DNA of 64,000 nt from Marivita sp. S6314 (GTDB lineage: Bacteria > Pseudomonadota > Alphaproteobacteria > Rhodobacterales > Rhodobacteraceae), in contig NZ_JALKAO010000006.1 of assembly GCF_023015985.1 (NCBI RefSeq), positions 1 through 64,000 of the forward strand, written 5' to 3'. The stretch's first letter is position 1. Every line of letters starts with the position of its first letter. This document shows positions 6,829 to 18,287 of the stretch, piece after piece. The position numbers and the translations under genes are program-made. The notes under the pieces were generated by a model. The model saw nothing but the letters and a program-made list of their open reading frames with translations, had not been told where the DNA came from and searched no databases.

Positions 6829-6969
6829 TCAACCGGGCATCTGCTCTTACTTCACCTCGTTACCAAAGTGATACGCGCGTTCAGTCATTGAATAAACTGC
6901 CTTTCTTTGATTTTTTGTTTACGTTACGGGACGAGAAGAGCCCGAGATGAGGCTGGAGGCGGTAGAGTT

Positions 6970-7788
6970 ATGGGATTTCCCGGCACTTGGATGACCGAGA
7001 GCGAAAGCATGGTCTATCGCGTTGTGCCGAAATGCGCGTGTTCGACCATCGGGCAGATCATGTTTTTTTCGGACCACGGCGAATTTTTCGATGGCGACAT
7101 CCATGATGCGCAAAACGGGCTGCATAAATGGGCGCTGGACCATAGCCGGGATCCCATCACGAAGCGCATCCAGGCGCATGATACCTATTCCTTTACCTGC
7201 GTGCGGAACCCGTACACCCGGATCCTGAGCTCTTTTTTTGACAAGATCTGCGGCATCCAGCGCAACGGCAAACGGTATCGCGGCAACCTCGTTCCGCTTC
7301 TGATCCAGAAATACGGGATCGAGGTCGGCGGTGAGGACGGCAAGCAGGAATTCGACCAGATCAAGAGCTTCCGCCGGTTCCTGCTGTTTGCGCGCGACAC
7401 CATCCGCTGGCGCCGCCCGATGGATCCGGACATTCACTGGTCCGCGATGTCAGGCCATATCAGCACGTTCATCGTGAATGGTGGCCGGTATGACAACATT
7501 TTCTGGACCGAGAGCTTTAACGACGGCATGGCCAGCGTCCTGAGCCAGGTCGACACGAAGCAAAGCATTGATCTTGCGAAGATCCCGCGCTTCAACGAAA
7601 GCGAAGGGCACGGACCAAAACGCGCGCATCCGGTCGAAGATTATTTCGATGACCTGTCGATGCATCTCGTCTACGAGATCTACAAACGGGATTTCGAGTT
7701 GTTCAAATACGACTTTGAAAATCCGGGCAACAAGATGCCGATTGGCGAGATCGACCTCGACGAGGTGCATGCCAAGCTTGGCGACTGA
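6970..7788 (+). CDS. Family-2 sulfotransferase
   Basis: A 272-residue carbohydrate-type sulfotransferase using PAPS as donor. The 5'-phosphosulfate loop is VPKCACSTIG at about 19-28. The 3'-phosphate region is probably RNPYTRILSSFFDKI, and a further conserved segment is SGHISTFIV. The start at 6970 is chosen over one 21 codons upstream because GGAGG lies 11 bases before it and the protein then begins directly at the family fold. It is divergent from the branching glycosyltransferase, and the 141-base AT-richer gap between them is likely to hold both promoters. The likely role is sulfation of an extracellular polysaccharide. The acceptor is not visible from sequence. Confidence 0.86.
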   Translation: MGFPGTWMTESESMVYRVVPKCACSTIGQIMFFSDHGEFFDGDIHDAQNGLHKWALDHSRDPITKRIQAHDTYSFTCVRNPYTRILSSFFDKICGIQRNGKRYRGNLVPLLIQKYGIEVGGEDGKQEFDQIKSFRRFLLFARDTIRWRRPMDPDIHWSAMSGHISTFIVNGGRYDNIFWTESFNDGMASVLSQVDTKQSIDLAKIPRFNESEGHGPKRAHPVEDYFDDLSMHLVYEIYKRDFELFKYDFENPGNKMPIGEIDLDEVHAKLGD

Positions 7789-7814: not shown

Positions 7815-7856
7815 GAAGTCGGTTCGAACCGACTTCAAGCGGTTTTGAACCCGCTT
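7815..7856. terminator. Palindrome plus second hairpin between convergent genes
   Basis: GAAGTCGGTTC and its exact complement form a 22-nt palindrome at 7815-7836 with a TTCGAA centre. A second stem, AAGCGG/CCGCTT, spans 7837-7856. Together they fill the gap between the sulfotransferase stop and the DUF1285 stop, and probably end transcription from both sides. Confidence 0.6.
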
Positions 7857-8445
7857 AGTCCGGCAATTCCGCCGACGGTATGATCTTGAAAAACGTCCCC
7901 TTGGACCAGACCCCGAACCAATCCTCGTGATGCGCACCGCACTCAACCAGACGGTAGAAACTCTTGCGGTCGATCAACGCCTCAAGATTGGCGCGGATCA
8001 GGATATATGGCGACGGCTCTCCGGTTTCGGGATCCCGCGTGACCCGGATGGGATTGTCGGCTGACGCAACGGCAGAGTCTCCAACATGGGTTTTGAACGT
8101 CAGAACCTGCGCGGCACCTTCGCCCTCAACATCGAAATCCGTGGCCACAAAAGGCGCGTCATCGACGGTGATTCCCACCTTTTCAACCGGCGTCACGAGG
8201 AAGTATTCGTCGCCATCCTTGCGCAGGATTGACGAAAACAGCTTTACCAGCTCGAATCGGCCAATCGGCGTGCCCAGGTAAAACCACGTCCCGTCCCGCG
8301 CGATGCGCATGTCGAGATCGCCGCAAAACGGCGGATTCCACAGATGAACCGGCGGCAGTCCCTTGCCTGTCGCGGCGCGCGCAGAGGCGGCGATGCCGTC
8401 TGCGGATGGATTAACACGATCTTGTGCGCTCATTGCTTTTGCCAT
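7855..8445 (-). CDS. DUF1285 domain protein
   Basis: A 196-residue soluble protein. The stretch [20 protein letters not shown], followed by [21 protein letters not shown], is the recognisable core of DUF1285. No enzymatic motif is evident and the family function is unknown to me. The reading frame stays open far upstream, over the MoxR gene, but codon sense ends at the MAKAMSAQ start (8445). It is divergent from the MoxR operon, with 57 bases between start codons. Gene order alone does not show that it works with MoxR. Confidence 0.87.
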
Positions 8446-8502
8446 TTTGACCCTGCGCGTTACACTTTCCTGAAACGAGATAATCCGCAAGGGAGACACG
8501 TC

Positions 8503-9510
8503 ATGGCCCCAGCCGAAGATTTGGTGGCAGAGATCGAAGCGCTGGAAGATAAGCTGGCGCAGGCCAGGACAGCCATCACGCGGCGGTTTATCGGACAGGA
8601 ACGGGTTGTCGAACTGACGCTGGCGGCGCTGTTGTGCGGCGGGCACGGGCTGTTGATCGGCTTGCCGGGCCTTGGGAAAACGCGTCTGGTCGAAACGGTG
8701 TCGACGGTGATGGGTCTGAATGGCAATCGGGTGCAATTCACACCTGACCTGATGCCCGCGGATATTCTTGGGTCCGAGGTTCTGGAAACCGGGGCGGATG
8801 GCAGCCGGGCCTTCAAATTCATTCAGGGTCCGATTTTTTGCCAGCTTCTGATGGCCGACGAAATCAACCGCGCGTCGCCGCGCACACAATCGGCCCTGTT
8901 GCAGGCGATGCAGGAAAAGGTCGTCACCGTCGCTGGCGAAACGCGGGAACTGGACGCCCCGTTCCACGTGCTTGCAACGCAGAACCCGATTGAACAGGAA
9001 GGCACGTACCCCCTGCCCGAAGCCCAGCTTGACCGTTTTCTGGTACAGATTGATGTGCAGTATCCGGATCGCGGAACCGAAAAGGAAATCCTTCTGGCCA
9101 CGACCGGCGCAGAGGAGGCAGAGGCTTACGGCGTGTTCACCGCGGCAGAGCTGCTTGCCGCCCAGAACCTGCTGCGCCGGATGCCGGTGGGGGATGCGGT
9201 GGTCGAGATGATCCTCGATCTGGTGCGCGCCTTCCGTCCGCATGACGCCCTGGCGGGCGAGCGGGTCAAGGACACCGTCTCTTGGGGACCCGGCCCGCGT
9301 GCGGCGCAAGCGTTGATGTTGACCGTGCGCGCACGGGCATTGCTGGAAGGTCGGCTGGCCCCGGCCCCCGAGGATGTCATCAACATGGCCCGCCCCGTGC
9401 TGACCCATCGGATGGCGCTGACCTTCTCGGCCCGCGCCCGGGGCGAGGATCTGGGAGATCTGATTGACGAAGTTGCAAGCGGTCTGGTTGCGACCGAGGC
9501 GGCTGCGTGA
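8503..9510 (+). CDS. MoxR-family AAA+ ATPase
   Basis: A 335-residue AAA+ protein, first gene of a four-gene operon. Walker A is GLPGLGKTR near 58-66 and Walker B is LLMADEINR near 115-123. Sensor 1 is [20 protein letters not shown] and the arginine-finger region is LDRFLVQI. MoxR ATPases act as chaperones that insert metals or assemble complexes, usually with a VWA-domain partner encoded next door. AGGGAG lies nine bases before the ATG. Its TGA overlaps the GTG of the DUF58 gene by four bases, so the downstream partners should be made in fixed proportion. Substrate unknown. Confidence 0.94.
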
Positions 9511-10382
9511 CCACGGTCACCGCCCTGCGCCAACGTTCCGAGGAAGAAGCCGCACGGCTTCCCGCGCTCCTTGCGCGGGCGGAACATCTTGCCGGGACGG
9601 TGCTCTTGGGGGACCACGGTCGCCGCAGATCGGGGTTGGGCGACGATTTCTGGCAGTATCGCCCGATGCAACAGGGCGACGCCCTGCGCGACATCGACTG
9701 GCGGCGGTCCGCGCGCAGCGATCAGCAATATGTGCGCGAACGCGAATGGCAGATTGCGCAAAGCGTCATTCTCTGGGTCGATCAGGCGGCATCGATGCGG
9801 TTTGCCTCGGACGACAACCTCAGCACCAAGGCGGATCGCGCCCGCACATTGGCCTTGGCGACATCAATCCTTTTGATCCGGGGGGGCGAACGGGTTGGCC
9901 TGACCGGGTTCGATTTGCCACCCCGGCGCGGACAGGCACAGATCACGCGACTGGCCGAGATGCTGTCAGTCGACCAATCCGACGATTACTCCGAACCCGA
10001 GGCACGCGGCATGATCCCGCAATCCCGCGCGCTGTTCTTTTCCGACTTTCTGGGAGATCCGGCCCCGGTTGAGGCGGCCCTGACCAAAGCGGCTGACCGG
10101 GGCGTGCGCGGTGCGCTGGTGCAAATCCTTGACCCGACCGAGGAGTATTTTCCCTTCGACGGGCGGACAATTTTCCAGAGCATTGGCGGCGGGTTGGTGC
10201 ACGAAACGCTGAAGGCCGGTGACCTGCGTTCCCGTTACCTTGACCGTCTGGCCGCGCGTAAGGATCGGCTGGAGCATCTCAGCCGACTGACCGGATGGCA
10301 GTATTTGTGCCATCATACGAATGACAGCGCGCAATCGGCGTTGCTTTGGATTTACCGCGCGATGGATGGGGCTCACGGATGA
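9507..10382 (+). CDS. DUF58 domain protein (VWA-like MoxR partner)
   Basis: A 291-residue protein with the DUF58 hallmark [20 protein letters not shown] at 51-70, followed by a VWA-like domain. The usual metal-site motif DxSxS reads D92-Q-A-A-S96 here, so its first serine is missing. A later SDFLGD keeps the aspartate of the third metal motif. The start is GTG, overlapping the MoxR stop in a GTGA. Its own stop overlaps the next ATG in an ATGA. DUF58 proteins regularly pair with MoxR ATPases. The degenerate metal site suggests a binding rather than a metal-dependent adhesive role. That is inference. Confidence 0.92.
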
Positions 10383-13144
10383 CGATTTTCGGTATCGGTT
10401 TTGTGACCCCGTGGCTGTTGCTGGCGCTTCTGACGTTGCCGATCCTCTGGCTGATCCTGCGCGCGGTGCCGCCCGCACCGATCCGACGGCTGTTCCCCGG
10501 TGTCGTGCTGTTGCTTGGCCTCAAGGACGATGATCAGGTCAGTGACCGAACCCCGTGGTGGCTGCTTTTGCTGCGTATGCTGGCGGTCGCTGCAATCATC
10601 ATCGGACTGGCCGGACCGATCCTGAACCCCGAGACGGACGATACCGCGCAAGGCAATGCGCCCTTGTTGGTTGTGATGGACGGATCATGGGTCAGCGCCG
10701 CAAGCTGGCGCGCCCGGACGCAAGCGCTGGACGGGCTGCTGGCGCAGGCTGCGCGCGATGACCGTCGTGTTGCGTTGATCAAATTGACATCGCCGGAACC
10801 CACCAGCTTTCAGGCGGCGGATGATCTGCGCGCCCGGTTGGTAGGGCTGACACCAGAGCCGTGGGAACCCTCGGAAGATCAGATCAGCCGCGCGGTGCAG
10901 GTGCTGCCGGATGGTGGGTTTGACACCTACTGGATGTCCGACGGGCTTGACCGTGACAGCCGCGCGACGCTTCTGGAAGCGCTGGAAGAGCGCGGCGTGA
11001 TCTCCGTGTTTCAGGCGGGTCAGACCATCCTGGGCCTTGCGCCCGCGCGGTTCGAGGATGGCAATATCATCCTGACCGCGCTGCGCGCCCAAACGGGCAG
11101 CCCGCGCGAGGTGACGATTCTGGCCCAAGGCCGCGACCCGGCGGGCAACCCGGCGGTTCTGGCGCGCGCGACAGCCGTGTTCGACGCCGATGCCGCAACA
11201 GCGGAAACCGCCTTGTCCCTGCCATCCGAGCTGCGCGCGCGGATCACCCGGTTTGAGATTGAGGGCAACCGCAGCGCTGGCGCGACAACCCTGCCGGATG
11301 ACAGCCTGCGCCGCCGCGAAGTTGCGCTGATCGCAGGGCGCGAGGACCGCGAGGGGCTGCAACTGCTGTCACCGCTGCATTATCTTGAGAAAGCGCTGGA
11401 ACCCAGTGCGGATCTGCTCAGCGGCGCACTGATGGATATCATTCCCGCCAACCCGGATGTGATCGGGCTTGCCGACGTGGCCACCCTTGGGCTGGCTGAA
11501 CAGGACGCGCTGTTGGCGTGGCTGGAAGACGGCGGCATTCTCTTGCGCTTTGCAGGCCCCCGCCTTGCCGCCAGCGATATCAGCCGCGAAGAGGAAGACC
11601 CTTTGATGCCCGTCCGTCTGCGTGCCGGCGGGCGCAGTGTCGGCGGTGCGATGAGTTGGGGAGAACCAAAATCCCTGGCCGCCTTTACCGAAGACAGCCC
11701 GTTTTTCGGCCTGCCCATTCCCGCTGACGTCACCGTATCTGCGCAGGTGATGGCCCAGCCCGATCCGGCACTTGCCGACCGGGTGATTGCACAGCTCAGC
11801 GATGGGACCCCGCTGGTGACCCGCAAACAGGTGGGTCAGGGCCAGATCATCCTGTTCCACGTCACCGCCAATGCCGAATGGTCAAGCCTGCCGCTGTCGG
11901 GCTTGTTTGTGCAAATGCTGGAACGGCTTGCCATCGCCGCCGGAGCATCGGCGCAACCCAGCGCGGAGGATCTTGCAGGCACGATCTGGCAGCCAACTTT
12001 GGTTCTGGACGCCTATGGCACGTTGGCCGATGGCAGCACATATCCGGGCGTCACAGGCGAAGCGCTTGTATCGACATCGCTGGGGCCGGACCTGCGCCCC
12101 GGTCTGTATCAAAGCCAGGACCGCGCGCTGGCGCGGAATGTGCTGTCGGCTGAGGACGCTTTGGTCCCGGCAACCTGGCCCGCAGATATCACCGTCGAAG
12201 GCCTGACCCCATCCGAGGAAACGCCGCTGGCCGGGTGGTTGCTGGCGCTTGCGACCCTCTTGTTGCTGGCCGATATCGTTGCCTCTTTGTTCCTCTCTGG
12301 GCGTCTGTCCGGCCCGAAAGCCACAACTGCCGCCGCTTTGATCGCCGCCGCGTTGCTGATGCCCGCATCACCGGTCACGGCGCAGGAAGACAGCTTTGCG
12401 CTCAAAACCACAGCCGAGGTGACCTTTGCCCATGTGGTGACGGGCGATGACGCGCTGGACCAAGTGGCGCAGGCCGGGTTGCGCGGGCTGTCCGAAACGC
12501 TGTTTTTCCGCACTTCGGTCGAACCGGCGGACCCGGTTGCGGTTAACCTTGAAACCGATGAACTGGCGTTCTTCCCGTTTCTCTACTGGCCCATCACGCC
12601 CGATCAGCCAACACCCTCTGCCGAGGCTTACACCAAACTCAACACCTACCTGCGCTCGGGCGGGATGATCATGTTCGACACCCGCGACGCCGATATCGCG
12701 CGATTTGGCACCGGCAGCCCCAATGGCCGCAAACTTCAGCAACTGGCCGCGCCGCTGGACATTCCTCCGCTTGAGCCGATCCCCGAAGACCACGTTCTGA
12801 CCCGCACATTCTACTTGCTGCAGGACTTCCCGGGCCGCCACAACAGCCGTGACGTCTGGGTCGAAGCCGCGCCGCCGGATGCGGAACTTGTTGAAGGCAT
12901 GCCGTTCAGGAACCTCAACGACAACGTGACGCCGGTGATCATCGGCGGCAATGACTGGGCATCGGCCTGGGCAATGGACCGGCGGGGCAACGCCATGTAC
13001 CCGATTGGTCGGGGATATTCAGGTGAACGTCAGCGCGAGATTGCGTATCGCTTTGGCGTCAACCTCGTGATGCATGTCCTGACCGGCAACTACAAATCCG
13101 ACCAGGTCCATGTACCTGCGCTTCTTGACAGGTTGGGCCAATAA
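10379..13144 (+). CDS. BatA-like membrane protein fused to DUF4159
   Basis: A 921-residue membrane protein. The N-terminus is BatA-like, with two helices (about 9-30 and 60-80). A VWA-like region follows, with D101-G-S-W-V-S106 in place of DxSxS and WMSDGLDRDS near 190. A long middle region resembles a glutamine-amidotransferase-like fold without a clear catalytic triad. A helix near 620-640 precedes a hydrophobic, signal-peptide-like stretch ending ASPVTAQ (about 650-670). The C-terminal DUF4159 domain then has YWPITPDQPTPS and RSGGMIMFDTRDADI. This order looks like two ancestral genes joined with the second signal peptide retained, which would place DUF4159 in the periplasm. The ATG at 10379 overlaps the DUF58 stop. 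Confidence 0.88.
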   Translation: MTIFGIGFVTPWLLLALLTLPILWLILRAVPPAPIRRLFPGVVLLLGLKDDDQVSDRTPWWLLLLRMLAVAAIIIGLAGPILNPETDDTAQGNAPLLVVMDGSWVSAASWRARTQALDGLLAQAARDDRRVALIKLTSPEPTSFQAADDLRARLVGLTPEPWEPSEDQISRAVQVLPDGGFDTYWMSDGLDRDSRATLLEALEERGVISVFQAGQTILGLAPARFEDGNIILTALRAQTGSPREVTILAQGRDPAGNPAVLARATAVFDADAATAETALSLPSELRARITRFEIEGNRSAGATTLPDDSLRRREVALIAGREDREGLQLLSPLHYLEKALEPSADLLSGALMDIIPANPDVIGLADVATLGLAEQDALLAWLEDGGILLRFAGPRLAASDISREEEDPLMPVRLRAGGRSVGGAMSWGEPKSLAAFTEDSPFFGLPIPADVTVSAQVMAQPDPALADRVIAQLSDGTPLVTRKQVGQGQIILFHVTANAEWSSLPLSGLFVQMLERLAIAAGASAQPSAEDLAGTIWQPTLVLDAYGTLADGSTYPGVTGEALVSTSLGPDLRPGLYQSQDRALARNVLSAEDALVPATWPADITVEGLTPSEETPLAGWLLALATLLLLADIVASLFLSGRLSGPKATTAAALIAAALLMPASPVTAQEDSFALKTTAEVTFAHVVTGDDALDQVAQAGLRGLSETLFFRTSVEPADPVAVNLETDELAFFPFLYWPITPDQPTPSAEAYTKLNTYLRSGGMIMFDTRDADIARFGTGSPNGRKLQQLAAPLDIPPLEPIPEDHVLTRTFYLLQDFPGRHNSRDVWVEAAPPDAELVEGMPFRNLNDNVTPVIIGGNDWASAWAMDRRGNAMYPIGRGYSGERQREIAYRFGVNLVMHVLTGNYKSDQVHVPALLDRLGQ

Positions 13145-15195
13145 TGACCGGCAGCATTGTTTTTGACCCGCTTCTGCCCTGGGGGCTGATTGCTGCACTG
13201 GCGGCACTTACGTTTCTTGGTGTCGCGCTGGCGCTGTGGCGTGGTTTGCAGGGATGGGCCTTGCGCGCTCTGGCCGCTGTGGTCGTGCTGGCGGCCGTGG
13301 CGCAACCGTCTTACCAGATCGAAGACCGCGCACCGCTGTCGAACATCGTGTTGATCGTCGAAGACAAAAGCGCGAGCCAGTCGCTTGGTGATCGCCTGAA
13401 TACGTCGACCAATGCGTCGGTCGCGCTTGCGGCGCAGCTTAACGCGCGCCCCAATACCGAGATCCGTCGCATTGACGTGGCCGATGGCGAAGGCGACACT
13501 GGCACGCTATTGATGTCCGCCGTGTCCGATGCGTTGGCCGAAGAACCGCGCGGGCGCATTGCCGGGATTTTCCTGCTGAGTGACGGGCGGTTGCATGATC
13601 TGGAACGCACACCAGACCTGCCTGCGCCGCTGCACCTGTTGCTGACGGGCAAGGACACGGACTGGGACCGCCGCCTGATTGTCAAAAACGCCCCTGCCTT
13701 CGCAATCCTCGGGGAACCGGTCACCCTGACCCTGCGTGTCGAAGACGATGGCGCAGCCCCGGACGACAGCGCCACCGTGATCGATATCTCGGTCGATGGC
13801 GAAGACCCGCAGCGTTTCGAAATGCCGATCGGACAGGACATCGAACTGCCCATCACCCTGCCGCATGGCGGCTTGAACGTGATCCAGTTCACCGTACCCG
13901 AAGCAGACGGAGAACTGACCGACCGCAACAATACCGCGCTTGTCCAGATCAACGGTGTGCGCGACCGTCTGCGCGTTCTGCTTGTGAGTGGCGAACCCCA
14001 TGCCGGTGGCCGTACATGGCGCAACCTGCTGAAATCCGACAGCTCTGTTGATCTGGTCCATTTCACCATTTTACGCCCGCCGGAAAAGCAAGACGGCGTC
14101 CCGGTGACCGAACTGTCGCTGATCGCCTTCCCGACGCGGGAACTGTTTCTTGAGAAGATCGAGGATTTCGACCTCATCATCTTTGACCGCTACAAGCGTC
14201 GCGGCATTCTGCCCGCAATCTATCTGGACAACGTGCGCAACTACGTCGAAGAGGGCGGTGCGGTTCTCGTTGCGGCTGGGCCTGACTTTGCCAGCGCCGA
14301 CAGCATCTACCGGTCCCCTTTGGCGGATATCCTTCCCGCCGAACCCACCGCCCGCGTGATCGAACGCGGCTACCGGCCAGAGATCACCGATCTGGGCCAG
14401 CGTCATCCCGTGACCTCCGGTCTTGCTGGGCAGGACACATGGGGGCGCTGGATGCGCCAGATCGAAGTTGACCCCATTGGCGGTGACGTTGTCCTGAGCG
14501 GGATCGACGACAAACCGCTTCTGGTGCTTGACCGCATCGGCGAAGGCCGTGTTGCCCTGATCGCGTCTGACCATGCGTGGCTCTGGTCGCGCGGGTTCGA
14601 AGGCGGCGGTCCGCAGCTTGATCTGCTGCGCCGTCTTGCGCACTGGATGATGAAGGAACCAGAGCTTGAGGAAGAAGCGCTCTGGGCCGAACCCACCGGC
14701 CAGACCATGCGCATTATCCGGCGCACGCTGGATGAAACAATCGGAACGGTCACGGTGACCCGACCGGATGGAACAGAAGAAGAGGTGACGCTCGAAGAGG
14801 TGACACCGGGCCGGTTCGAGGCGCTCTATACCGGGCCGACGATTGGGCTCTATCGACTAACCGAAGGCGATGAAGAGGCCGTGGTTGGCCTTGGCCCCGC
14901 CGCGCCGCGCGAATTCGAAGAAACCATCGCAAGCGGAGAGGTGCTTGAGGAAACCGTCGCGGCAACGCGCGGCGGGGTGCGGCGGCTGGAAGAGGGATTG
15001 CCAACGATCCGCGCCGTCGGCGAAGGCCGTCCAGCCGCTGGCCGCGGCTGGCTTGGCATCACCCCGCGCGAGGCGTTCGAGACACTGGACGTGACCCAAA
15101 CACCGATCCTGCCGGGATGGCTGGTCCTGCTTCTGGCCTCGGGCCTGATCCTTGGCGCGTGGTTACGCGAAGGGCGGCGCGACACGCCGACCTAA
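13144..15195 (+). CDS. Membrane-anchored GATase/VWA-like protein, last gene of the MoxR operon
   Basis: A 683-residue protein with two N-terminal helices (about 11-32 and 38-56) and one C-terminal helix (about 655-672). Most of it should lie in the periplasm. D74-K-S-A-S78 matches DxSxS exactly, and FLLSDGRLHD near 140 fits the third VWA metal motif. The middle part, with LRVLLVSGEPHAGGRTWRN and EEGGAVLVAAGPDFASAD, resembles a class I glutamine amidotransferase-like fold. I see no Cys-His-Glu triad, so an enzymatic role is unlikely. The ATG shares one base with the preceding TAA. The stop overlaps the convergent DUF4214 gene by four bases, leaving no room for a separate terminator. Confidence 0.85.
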   Translation: MTGSIVFDPLLPWGLIAALAALTFLGVALALWRGLQGWALRALAAVVVLAAVAQPSYQIEDRAPLSNIVLIVEDKSASQSLGDRLNTSTNASVALAAQLNARPNTEIRRIDVADGEGDTGTLLMSAVSDALAEEPRGRIAGIFLLSDGRLHDLERTPDLPAPLHLLLTGKDTDWDRRLIVKNAPAFAILGEPVTLTLRVEDDGAAPDDSATVIDISVDGEDPQRFEMPIGQDIELPITLPHGGLNVIQFTVPEADGELTDRNNTALVQINGVRDRLRVLLVSGEPHAGGRTWRNLLKSDSSVDLVHFTILRPPEKQDGVPVTELSLIAFPTRELFLEKIEDFDLIIFDRYKRRGILPAIYLDNVRNYVEEGGAVLVAAGPDFASADSIYRSPLADILPAEPTARVIERGYRPEITDLGQRHPVTSGLAGQDTWGRWMRQIEVDPIGGDVVLSGIDDKPLLVLDRIGEGRVALIASDHAWLWSRGFEGGGPQLDLLRRLAHWMMKEPELEEEALWAEPTGQTMRIIRRTLDETIGTVTVTRPDGTEEEVTLEEVTPGRFEALYTGPTIGLYRLTEGDEEAVVGLGPAAPREFEETIASGEVLEETVAATRGGVRRLEEGLPTIRAVGEGRPAAGRGWLGITPREAFETLDVTQTPILPGWLVLLLASGLILGAWLREGRRDTPT

Positions 15196-16538
15196 ATCAG
15201 GCTCGACGCGTCGAAATCGTCGGTCAGAACACCCACCAGGGGCAACAGGAATTCCCCGTTTTGCGGGTCCAGCGCGTCTGCATAGAAATTGTCTGCCTGA
15301 TTCCGTGCATCAATCTCGGTCACGGCAAACCCGTCAAACAGATCCATCACCGTACGGGCGTTGTCTACGTCTGACATTCCCAGATGCACGGCGAAATAGG
15401 TACCGATATCGGTTTTCGTATCAAGATAGTCCCGATCAATCCCGCGTTGCGCAATGGTTTCGGGCGAGTCGGTTGGCTGGTTCGGTGCATCGACACCGCG
15501 CAGCAATTCAAGGATGAACTCATCCCGCTGGCGCGCGCCGCTGTCGAGAACATTCACCCAGAACGCAAAGCCCACGTCATCGGGATCGCGCCCCAAGACG
15601 TTGTTATAGACGGCCGTGACAAATCCGCCGTTGGTGGTGCCTGCCGGATAGGTGGCTTGAGTCTCTGGTTGCGGGGCAAACAGCCGGGCCATGTCGTCCA
15701 GCGTCGACACAACCCCATTGGCATAGTTCGTCGCCCAGAAGTTAAGACCCAAGGCATCGGGCGCGCGATTGAAATAGGCGATATAGAGCTCGATGATATC
15801 CTCAAGCTCTTCCACCGTGATCAACGCCGCCCCGCCAAACGCCGTTGCGTCGAAGGTCGTGTCTTCAAAATCAATGAACTCGATCCCGGTGAGCGTGTCG
15901 GTCCCGGCCCCCTCGGCGCGCCTATCTTCCACGGTTGTCCCGGAAGGAGAGATCGTCACCGTATGACTGCTTTGCGGGCCAGCATAGATCGCCGTATCCT
16001 GCCCGGCACCACCGTCGATCACATCGTTTCCCGCACCGCCTTCCAGGGTGTCATTGCCCTGCTCCCCAACAAGCGAATCCGGGCCATCCGTCCCGGTCAA
16101 ACTGTCCGGACCATCGGTCGGCATCATGTTCGAGGTCGGCGACCCGAACGGCAACACTTGCGACAGTGTGACGATTTCAGTCACGACGCCCGAATTGTTC
16201 AGAACCACTTCAAACGTGTCGATGTCCCAGAACCCGGATCGGTTCACCGAGAACTCGTAGGCAAACAGCACGTCCCCGGGTGCCGCGCCGCCATCCACCA
16301 CGCCAACGGCCCTGTCGATGATCGTGTCGCCGGTTTCGAACACCATGGTGCTGGTGAGGGTTGCGTCATTCTCGACAACGCCAACAAAGTCGGCGGGGGC
16401 GACGCCCGGCACGTTGGTCGAATTCACGAGGCCTCGGATAAAGGTCTCGAACGTGGTGCCGTCAGGCAGGGCCTGATCGGCAACGATATTGATAAAAAAC
16501 GTATCTTGAAATTGGCCGTATTCCAGTCTGAGAGGCAT
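15192..16538 (-). CDS. DUF4214 protein with RTX-type calcium repeats (downstream paralogue)
   Basis: A 448-residue acidic protein with almost no cysteine and no N-terminal signal peptide. Residues 145-187 hold nonapeptide calcium repeats (GEQGNDTLEGGAGNDVIDGG). Two DUF4214-type repeats follow: LYIAYFNRAPDALGLNFW near 251-268 and VYNNVLGRDPDDVGFAFWV about 50 residues later. The C-terminus GVLTDDFDASSLI resembles that of the next gene. RTX repeats, low cysteine and no Sec signal point to type I secretion, although no T1SS gene is in the window. The N-terminal 130 residues have no family I recognise. A CtrA-type box lies 58 bases upstream. Confidence 0.88.
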   Translation of the reverse strand: MPLRLEYGQFQDTFFINIVADQALPDGTTFETFIRGLVNSTNVPGVAPADFVGVVENDATLTSTMVFETGDTIIDRAVGVVDGGAAPGDVLFAYEFSVNRSGFWDIDTFEVVLNNSGVVTEIVTLSQVLPFGSPTSNMMPTDGPDSLTGTDGPDSLVGEQGNDTLEGGAGNDVIDGGAGQDTAIYAGPQSSHTVTISPSGTTVEDRRAEGAGTDTLTGIEFIDFEDTTFDATAFGGAALITVEELEDIIELYIAYFNRAPDALGLNFWATNYANGVVSTLDDMARLFAPQPETQATYPAGTTNGGFVTAVYNNVLGRDPDDVGFAFWVNVLDSGARQRDEFILELLRGVDAPNQPTDSPETIAQRGIDRDYLDTKTDIGTYFAVHLGMSDVDNARTVMDLFDGFAVTEIDARNQADNFYADALDPQNGEFLLPLVGVLTDDFDASSLI

Positions 16539-16676: not shown

Positions 16677-18287
16677 CTAGACAATTCCTCCGCTGAAATC
16701 GTCGGTCAGGACACCGGTGATCTGGATCAGGAACTCACCGGTCAGCGGATCATTTGCAGCGCTGACAAACCCATCCGCCACGGTGCGCGCACCCGCCTCA
16801 TCAGCTTGAGTGGCATCGCCGAACGCATCCATCACATCCTGCGCGTTCTCTGCATCGGTCATCCCAAGATGCACGGCGAAATACGCGCCGACATCTGTCT
16901 TGGTCTCCAGATACACCCGGTCCAGCGCCTGCTGGTCGATTGTCTCTTGCGGCGTGCCATCAGGAAGCGGTGCGCGTGTGCCTTGGAGGATATCAAGGAT
17001 GAACTCGGCCCGTGTTGATCCGCCAGCGCCCAACTGGCCCAGCCAGAACGCAAGCCCTGGCGCGTCCGGGTCGCGCCCCAGAACGTTGTTATAGACAGCT
17101 TCGATAAAAACGGTGTCGGTCGTGCCCTCGGGGTACAACCCCTGCGTTTCCGGCTGCGTTGCGAAATCGTTGGCCATGTCACCCAAGGTGACCCCACCTT
17201 CGGCATAGGCATTGGTCCAGAAGGCCAGCCCCAGCGAATCCGGCGCGCGGTTGTAATAGGCGATGTATAGTTCGATCACCTCGTTGAACTGCGCCTCGGT
17301 CAATTGCGCGCCTGAATCGAACCGGTCCAGAAAAAACGCCGGAATGGCAGTTTCGCCTTCGAACTTGAGAAACTCGATCCCGGTCAGCAGATCGTAATCA
17401 TCCCGCCCTGCCGTTCTGTCATCGACCCGCGCCGATGTTGGGGACAGTTGCAACGTGTAGCCGTTCTGCGGCCCGGAAAACACAGCCGTGTCGATCCCGT
17501 CATCGCCATTAATGAAATCCACCCCCGGTCCACCGAAGATCGAATCGTTGCCGTTTCCGCCTTCGATCACCTCTTGCTCATCAGTGACCCCGGACAGGCT
17601 GTCATCGCCAGACGTGGCCCGGTTTTCATCGGGCCCATCACCAACACGTTCTTCATCGCTGCTGAACACGATACGTTCGATAAAGTCGCCGTCGATATAC
17701 GCCACGCGCAAACTGATCACCGCGCCGTCATCCGCGTCGGTCAGCACATAGGTCGCGGCCTCTGCTTCCCCGATCTGCGTAATTGTTCCGTCGCGAAACC
17801 ACGTGTATTCCAGAGACTGTTCCGACAAGAGACCAAAATTTGGCAGCTGTGAGGTGTCAACAGAAAGCGTCTCACCGACGGCAAAGTCCCCAAGGATCAT
17901 ATCCGCCTCAAGGGGCGGCGGCGCCTCCAGATCAATCTCTGGCAAGGCAGGGGTGGGTTGCACAACGCCATCAAAACTGCCCTCAAACGAGGTGACGTCG
18001 ATGATCCCGGCTTCGAGCACTTCGAATTCGAAAGACAACAGCCGTGTTCCGGCTGTCAGTGGCCCGATGAACGTCCCTGAAGACGCGGCGGTATAGCTGA
18101 AATTCGAGAGATCAGACGTGTTTGACACCTCTGCATTTGTCAGAAGGTCGATGCCATTTGAACGCACATCCTGCACGGTCATCGCAATATCGAAGGCAAA
18201 GGTAAAATTCTGCGAAACGTTTTCGGTTAAAGACACGATAACGGACGCCGCGCGACCGTTTTGAAGAATGGAAAGACTGTAAGACAT
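16677..18287 (-). CDS. DUF4214 protein with Ig-like and RTX-like domains (upstream paralogue)
   Basis: A 536-residue acidic protein, paralogous to its downstream neighbour over the C-terminal ~300 residues. An N-terminal beta-rich region (1-120) is followed by an Ig-like/transglutaminase-like repeat with LEYTWFRDGTITQIGEAEA and YVLTDADDGAVISLRVAYID (about 155-200). Degenerate calcium repeats follow (EGGNGNDSIFGGPGVDFING), then DUF4214 repeats LYIAYYNRAPDSLGLAFW and VYNNVLGRDPDAPGLAFW. The tail GVLTDDFSGGIV matches the paralogue. No Sec signal; type I secretion is inferred. A CtrA-type box lies 106 bases before the start. The different N-termini suggest different targets on the same repeat scaffold. 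Confidence 0.88.
   Translation of the reverse strand: MSYSLSILQNGRAASVIVSLTENVSQNFTFAFDIAMTVQDVRSNGIDLLTNAEVSNTSDLSNFSYTAASSGTFIGPLTAGTRLLSFEFEVLEAGIIDVTSFEGSFDGVVQPTPALPEIDLEAPPPLEADMILGDFAVGETLSVDTSQLPNFGLLSEQSLEYTWFRDGTITQIGEAEAATYVLTDADDGAVISLRVAYIDGDFIERIVFSSDEERVGDGPDENRATSGDDSLSGVTDEQEVIEGGNGNDSIFGGPGVDFINGDDGIDTAVFSGPQNGYTLQLSPTSARVDDRTAGRDDYDLLTGIEFLKFEGETAIPAFFLDRFDSGAQLTEAQFNEVIELYIAYYNRAPDSLGLAFWTNAYAEGGVTLGDMANDFATQPETQGLYPEGTTDTVFIEAVYNNVLGRDPDAPGLAFWLGQLGAGGSTRAEFILDILQGTRAPLPDGTPQETIDQQALDRVYLETKTDVGAYFAVHLGMTDAENAQDVMDAFGDATQADEAGARTVADGFVSAANDPLTGEFLIQITGVLTDDFSGGIV

Follow-up and report, generated by a model that had tools for sequence, protein, structure and literature searches.

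A cmdABCD-type MoxR operon of Marivita sp. S6314 and the unequal conservation of its metal-site motifs

A four-gene MoxR operon occupies positions 8503 to 15195 of the DNA analysed here, a stretch of 64,000 nucleotides from Marivita sp. S6314 (contig NZ_JALKAO010000006.1, positions 1 to 64,000), which we refer to as the window. The operon is of the cmdABCD type and belongs to the MRP subfamily of MoxR, and it matches RL3499-RL3502 of Rhizobium leguminosarum by gene content and published accounts. Residue tables and a tree indicate that the metal site of its DUF58 protein is relaxed in the window's family and that of CmdC degenerate in the class, and that the site of CmdD is under strict constraint. 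On balance, we lean towards reading the operon as an envelope-maintenance system, in which a cytosolic MoxR-DUF58 pair is coupled to CmdC and CmdD with their periplasmic VWA and GATase-like domains.

All four genes lie on the forward strand. The first, cmdA (8503-9510), encodes a MoxR AAA+ ATPase of 335 amino acids with Walker A (GLPGLGKT) and Walker B (DEINRA) motifs, matched by the Pfam models AAA_3 (E 4.1e-57) and AAA_lid_2. The second, cmdB (9507-10382), has a GTG start and encodes a DUF58 protein of 291 amino acids (Pfam DUF58, E 4.5e-28), with DxAxS at D92-S96 and a later D180. CmdC (10379-13144) begins with a BatA N-terminal hairpin (Pfam BatA, E 3.5e-19), followed by a VWA-like domain with a degenerate metal site, a GATase-like domain, two more transmembrane (TM) segments and a C-terminal DUF4159 domain (Pfam, E 1.6e-54). 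CmdD (13144-15195) has two N-terminal TM segments, a VWA domain with a complete metal site (13321-13659), beta domains, a GATase1_like domain without Cys (Pfam, E 5.4e-07) and a C-terminal TM segment. The reported overlaps of one to four bases hold, as do the coordinates: the three junctions share 4, 4 and 1 bases (9507-9510, 10379-10382 and 13144). In the whole genome AAA_3 finds four matches, of which cmdA alone is over the cut-off. The single DUF58 match is CmdB, and CmdC likewise occurs in one copy.

A DUF58 gene beside MoxR is given as the mark of the MRP subfamily (PMC12067865), and in the window MoxR is followed by DUF58 and then by further membrane proteins. For RL3499-RL3502, which are cmdA-cmdD of R. 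leguminosarum, mutants with defects in membrane or envelope integrity and in morphology are reported (PMC3893208, PMC5700661), and growth on complex medium is listed as impaired for RL3499 and RL3500 (PMC5118466). The two operons are alike in being MoxR-led and conserved in alphaproteobacteria, with an envelope and morphology phenotype known from R. leguminosarum; they differ in that the DUF58 proteins of the window's family mostly lack the first metal-site Ser. A lack of precedent for the system is not supported, as the operon type has already been described as cmdABCD with an envelope phenotype. The residue observation of the initial annotation was correct and is sharpened here. In the literature on such MoxR operons, which was not searched in full, we found no description of this metal-site pattern. 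The term DUF4159 occurs in none of the papers searched, and PMC7159879 makes no mention of DUF58 or BatA either.

Two sets of loci were compared. The first consists of 60 loci from an order and a class sample (21 order rows and 39 class rows in the CmdC alignment); the order sample is in effect a family sample, because all of its rows are listed as Marivita's genus or family. The second consists of the best 80 loci of a further genome scan, with titles that are Rhodobacterales-type or unclassified alphaproteobacterial bins, the closest relative being a Marivita by title with 88% identity. The motifs first read from the window, D-Q-A-A-S in DUF58 (D92), D-G-S-W-V-S in CmdC (D101) and D-K-S-A-S in CmdD (D74), are as described, each of the three proteins keeps the later S-D aspartate (D180, D188 and D147), and when these residues are aligned the window's pattern holds in the relatives. 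The singling out of the last protein is also borne out, the metal ion-dependent adhesion site (MIDAS) of CmdD alone being complete across relatives.

The CmdD site comprises D74-x-S76-x-S78 (13363-13377), T121 (13504-13506) and D147 (13582-13584), so that DxSxS, Thr and Asp come together in a Rossmann-type domain, as in a VWA domain with MIDAS. In the first set, D74 and S78 are each found in 59/59 rows and D147 in 58/59 (one Glu), and in the second set all three are found in 79/79. Position 76 is occupied by Ser in 47 of the 59 first-set rows and by Thr in the other 12; in the second set the counts are 72 Ser and 7 Thr. The MIDAS Thr at position 121, missed at first reading, is Thr in 57 and Ser in 2 of 59 rows of the first set, and Thr in 72 and Ser in 8 of 80 rows when the second set is taken with the window. 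This comparison ranks D74, S78, T121 and D147 of CmdD first for mutation.

CmdC presents a different picture. At position 101 the first set has Asp in 57 of its 60 rows and Glu in the remaining 3; Ala stands at position 105 in 39/60, and D188 is kept in 21/21 order rows and 29/39 class rows. Position 103 is Gly in 30/39 class rows and Ser in 14/21 order rows; in the second set it is Ser in 48, Thr in 20, Gly in 11 and Asp in 1, with Ala at position 105 in 75/80. No conserved Thr is seen in the alignments over residues 158-177. With mostly Ala in place of the second MIDAS Ser and no such Thr, CmdC does not have a complete MIDAS, and two tryptophans of the same region are kept almost throughout the first set (W104 in 58/60, W110 in 60/60).

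The DUF58 comparison has 137 rows apart from the window's own; Asp is found at position 180 in all 137 and at position 92 in 132, and Ser at position 96 in 125. Position 94, the first MIDAS Ser, is Ser in 35/39 class rows; it is Ala in 11, Gly in 7 and Ser in 2 of 20 order rows, and Ala in 35, Gly in 31 and Ser in 12 of 78 rows of the second set (Ala or Gly in 66/78). In a tree built with FastTree from the joined CmdA, CmdC and CmdD sequences (134 rows), Ser and not-Ser at this position exchange at least 17 times, and at least 13 times counting only the 97 order and second-set rows. Three metal sites that decay in different ways had been proposed for the window. The sites do differ, but the apparent decay of DUF58 mainly characterises the window's family rather than the class. 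A prediction follows, namely that the first MIDAS Ser of DUF58 is dispensable in Rhodobacteraceae.

The proposal of three successive VWA-like regions fares unevenly. In a profile comparison against 16 VWA domains from related genomes, the CmdD segment matched clearly (96.2%), with DxSxS, Thr and Asp aligned, and the CmdC segment moderately (64.3%), with the strand-helix order present, but the DUF58 segment did not register (5.7%), and we do not count it as a clear VWA on this basis. The VWA nature of DUF58 is taken from an InterPro association, as told in PMC12067865. In single-sequence Pfam scans at E 1, VWA_2 was matched by 13/30 CmdD segments (best 4.2e-05), and no Pfam VWA model was matched by 30 CmdC segments. 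The VWA-like domain of CmdC (10640-11044) is recognized from the residue alignment, the profile comparison and the AlphaFold2 model. Compared as full profiles, CmdD and CmdC give an alignment of 409 columns (45.2%); as a match to each other, their VWA segments alone reached 3.0% only and were set aside. We infer that the two proteins are paralogue-like and sit in the inner membrane.

The AlphaFold2 model of CmdD (53 rows; mean predicted local distance difference test score, pLDDT, 83.0; predicted template modelling score, pTM, 0.65) has two N-terminal helices, an alternating strand-helix domain at residues 67-167 in which D74 and D147 sit where strands end, beta domains, the GATase-like domain with weak stretches at 298-301 and 309-328, and a C-terminal helix. 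In the CmdC model (46 rows; mean pLDDT 75.4, pTM 0.54) the parts are ordered much as in CmdD: residues 96-212 form a confidently predicted strand-helix domain, and two more helices and DUF4159 follow, the latter poorly predicted beyond about residue 800. A Foldseek search of the PDB with CmdD places STM3548 (2gk3, E 1.5e-10) and STM1381 (3soz, E 1.4e-08) at the top, both of which we take to be GATase1-like; in a sequence search, 3soz matches CmdD residues 355-482 at E = 1 only. With CmdC, GH42 glycosidases come first (1.5e-07) and 2gk3 follows at 4.7e-07; among the 50 rows shown, a row naming ANTXR2, a VWA receptor, in its title stands at rank 46 (E 1.9e-4, root-mean-square deviation 19.4). 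CmdA and the CmdC C-terminus have sequence relatives of known structure, 2r44 for MoxR (E 1.4e-59) and 4i66 for DUF4159 (Hoch_4089, E 1.5e-27), both deposited as uncharacterised proteins.

Could CmdC and CmdD be enzymes, their GATase-like or DUF4159 domains catalysing an envelope modification under the regulation of MoxR? The many conserved columns of these domains speak for it: 87/239 columns are at least 93% identical in the GATase-like domain of CmdD (residues 274-512, 13963-14679), 44/205 in that of CmdC and 49/242 in DUF4159. The last two nearly equal the conservation of the BatA loop and its helices (8/31, 5/18 and 5/23), and the CmdC VWA domain has 5/131. Class I glutamine amidotransferases use a catalytic Cys nucleophile. 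Cys is absent from CmdC and CmdD of the window and from most homologues (91/139 for CmdC and 96/137 for CmdD lack any), and none of the columns at least 93% identical holds one. A Cys-dependent amidotransferase is therefore disfavoured, and CmdD was rejected as a class I enzyme. Furthermore, the best structural matches are uncharacterised deposits, or glycosidases aligned in part only. Altogether, we regard an enzymatic role as rather improbable.

Hydropathy gives four TM segments for CmdC, three for CmdD and none for DUF58. MoxR has one weak window at residues 35-53 (mean 1.73); we interpret it as a buried strand that precedes the P-loop and not as a TM segment, because it spans the conserved GGHGLLIG stretch. 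The TM1-TM2 loops carry 4.5 Lys+Arg per sequence in CmdC and 1.8 in CmdD, with 3.1 and 0.0 Asp+Glu, and the N-termini carry 0.0 and 0.1 Lys+Arg. This charge bias modestly favours a topology in which the VWA, GATase-like and DUF4159 domains would be periplasmic and the BatA loop cytosolic. As a single unit, the membrane-anchored periplasmic assembly of the initial annotation is not supported. It is half right in that CmdC and CmdD have clear TM segments and domains predicted outside, but DUF58 lacks a hydrophobic segment and MoxR has the one weak window.

The comparison establishes gene content and order, the overlaps, the conservation and the motif pattern. Both the topology and the coupling of CmdA and CmdB to CmdC and CmdD are inferred, and the envelope-maintenance reading can be set out as follows. 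CmdA, the MoxR ATPase, would work in the cytosol, with CmdB as a VWA-type adaptor in the same compartment. CmdC and CmdD would sit in the inner membrane, exposing to the periplasm VWA domains and GATase-like domains without a Cys nucleophile. The conserved BatA hairpin loop of CmdC (residues 29-59), predicted to be cytosolic, is a candidate docking element, likely for CmdA or CmdB. The intact MIDAS of CmdD probably grips an acidic residue of a periplasmic client, as has been proposed for the NorD MIDAS and nitric oxide reductase, and that client would be remodelled or assembled through ATP hydrolysis. By the same NorQ-NorD analogy, DUF58 could do without its own MIDAS if the client is gripped elsewhere. 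A stronger formulation is a trans-membrane AAA+ chaperone, with a cytosolic DUF58 that acts as motor adaptor only and whose MIDAS could erode freely in Rhodobacteraceae, a periplasmic CmdD whose strictly conserved MIDAS would grip the envelope client, and force or a conformational signal passed through the BatA hairpin of CmdC. We put this forward as a tentative idea, with low confidence.

NorQ-NorD, CbbQ-CbbO and RavA-ViaA resemble the cmd operon in pairing a MoxR ATPase with a VWA partner, and in NorD the MIDAS is needed for the target. They differ in that their VWA binds the ATPase directly, whereas the intact cmd MIDAS is predicted across the membrane. In NorQ-NorD, a VWA finger is described in the MoxR pore, with the MIDAS serving the target and not ATPase binding (PMC9976466, PMC13036017); NorD MIDAS mutants still co-purify with NorQ, and the target is inactive (PMC9976466). 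The same systems bear on an alternative in which MoxR and DUF58 mature CmdC and CmdD, for example by bringing metal into the CmdD MIDAS or assembling CmdC with CmdD, these two being the working envelope parts. That the four genes travel together would fit, as would the postulate that in Bat proteins MoxR coordinates metal into the MIDAS (PMC3557215). However, MoxR probably resides in the cytosol, on the other side of the membrane from the predicted place of the CmdD MIDAS, and NorD requires its MIDAS for the target but can bind NorQ without it (PMC9976466). We consider this maturation role unlikely, though less so than the enzymatic one.

The Bat operons of Bacteroides, Leptospira and Borrelia are a further point of comparison, with MoxR, DUF58 and BatA-type membrane proteins carrying VWA domains (PMC5700661, PMC3557215). 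There, the Bat VWA is reported to have a MIDAS, and BatD, TPR and SH3 members are described (PMC5700661, PMC3557215). In the cmd operon the CmdC MIDAS is degenerate and the MIDAS is in CmdD, with DUF4159 and GATase-like domains instead; the BatA N-terminal hairpin is shared, and a MIDAS in the BatA VWA and TPR-bearing members are not found. A Bat-like oxidative-stress or periplasmic redox system would agree with the BatA domain of CmdC and with the role in aerotolerance first proposed for Bacteroides (recounted in PMC3557215 and PMC5700661). It is hard to reconcile with the Leptospira bat deletion, in which oxidative-stress survival was reported as not detectably altered (PMC3557215), with the lack of Cys in CmdC, CmdD and most of their homologues, and with the TPR model in Pfam, matched by none of the four genes. 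This makes it the least probable of the alternatives.

The tie to the envelope comes also from Rhodobacter sphaeroides. There, RSP_1024, a 'Putative MoxR family protein', is listed with a CenR ChIP peak and the site TCACGATCATTTGTG (PMC9275681 Table 1), and its transcript changes by log2 +0.85 in cenR D56E, -0.56 in the cenK deletion and -0.84 in cenR D56A, a pattern of positive regulation (PMC9275681). We searched for this exact 15-mer in 2,454,073 bases (141 sequences: the 80 second-set loci, the 60 first-set loci and 15 kb of the window, all centred on the operon). All five occurrences precede the cmd MoxR gene, about 90-110 bases before the expected start in 5/5, and in 3/5 of these the mechanical frame runs further upstream. 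By title, the loci are Rhodobacter (3), Cypionkella and a Rhodobacterales bin. RSP_1024 is very probably the cmdA orthologue, and CenKR, an essential regulator of the envelope, appears to activate the cmd operon in R. sphaeroides; this tie makes an envelope role directly testable.

In the window, a CenR-like stretch, TAACACGATCTTGTG, lies at 8412-8426 on the forward strand, inside the 5' end of the DUF1285 gene, and aligns with the RSP_1024 CenR site of relatives. A sigma-70-like promoter match, TTGCCA-16-TACACT, follows 12 bases downstream (8439-8466, forward strand); between 8300 and 15400 two such matches were found, against 1.1 expected from shuffles. A CenR site followed by a promoter is the arrangement told for activated genes (PMC9275681). 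With a scoring matrix built on the other 30 sites of Table 1, 36/97 family loci and 0/9 class loci exceed the 95% level of random windows; 31/137 loci (30 of them class) were left out, where the anchor pattern or the contig edge failed. The RSP_1024 site itself scores 8.27 with that matrix, under the 95% level of 9.35, and the best score upstream in the window (8.26) falls on TTACACTTTCCTGAA at 8460-8474 and not on TAACACGATCTTGTG. The conservation of TAACACGATCTTGTG is moreover confounded, because its bases double as coding sequence for the beginning of DUF1285. For these reasons family-wide conservation of the CenR site was not used as independent evidence.

Several points weigh against the envelope-maintenance reading. 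In known MoxR-VWA couples the ATPase and the VWA share one compartment, whereas the intact cmd MIDAS would lie across the membrane from its ATPase. The charge bias is modest, and the CmdC loop that supplies its positive charges is also rich in acidic residues (4.5 against 3.1 per sequence). The VWA segments of the window's own CmdC and CmdD have no Pfam VWA match at E 1, and no VWA protein was recognised among the 50 Foldseek rows shown for CmdD. The orthology to RL3499-RL3502 was taken from gene content and papers and not from sequence. Finally, the CenKR study marks RSP_1024 as containing a TM domain, as predicted by TMHMM, and reports the ChIP peak in the D56E strain only, at 1.7-fold (PMC9275681).

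CmdD is present in 148/149 genomes of the order sample, and DUF4159 occurs in 154/289 genomes of the class sample. In the phylum sample DUF4159 occurs in 72/299 genomes, seven of them outside the class. The seven matches outside Alphaproteobacteria (among them L207 and L208) lie in open frames of only 229-275 amino acids, and the fusion of BatA, VWA, GATase-like and DUF4159 domains may be particular to Alphaproteobacteria. All four cmd genes are present in 57/60 loci of the first set (exceptions L068, L099 and L100) and in 76/80 of the second. In these and the window, order and strand are identical in 134/134 four-gene loci. At the three junctions, the stop of one gene and an in-frame start of the following one are no more than 20 bases apart in 119, 122 and 122 of 134. 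Because of this colinearity and the presence of CmdD in nearly every family genome, the grouping is more than chance. At L068 (genome G160), DUF4159 lies in an open frame of 299 amino acids, and CmdC and CmdD were not found at E 1e-4.

The divergent neighbour upstream is a DUF1285 gene (7855-8445, reverse strand; Pfam DUF1285_N/C). It is found at 50/60 loci of the first set, 49 of them among the 57 four-gene loci, and together with all four cmd genes at 75/80 of the second. Five second-set loci lack the full set (L169, L179, L187, L188 and L196), and in each of them the contig ends within 250 bases of the first or last gene found. Of the 22 neighbour clusters seen most often within 3.5 kb at the 134 loci, seven representatives were run on Pfam, one without a match. 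Downstream of the operon, PBP1C occurs in 14/134 loci and a bacterial alpha-2-macroglobulin in 12/134 (one representative of each scanned), for example at L174:15673-17703 and L145:16915-22338. Such a neighbourhood is suggestive of a link to peptidoglycan and of an envelope role, although the evidence is weak and possibly from one lineage. No methanol dehydrogenase or nitric oxide reductase gene was recognised among the 22 clusters, and a maturation role for either was rejected. A defence system was likewise rejected, PADLOC giving two weak RtcR-type AAA matches to MoxR (4e-05 and 0.0055) and none for the other three proteins at E 0.01. The Pseudomonas aeruginosa anti-antagonism locus PA4317-23, described with a MoxR/VWF pair (PMC8926400), differs from the cmd operon in its gene set.

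Beyond these, a gene at 6907-7788 (forward strand) is sulfotransferase-like by eye, with relatives upstream of the operon in 11 loci. Two RTX-type proteins are encoded convergently to the operon on the reverse strand. The first (15192-16538; Pfam DUF4214 and HemolysinCabind) has a stop that overlaps the cmdD stop by 4 bases, and the second (16677-18287) resembles it by appearance only. Elsewhere in the same genome, at G000:C32:392545-394923, a VWA_2 match stands close to a weak AAA_3 match, possibly a CobT/CobS-type pair.

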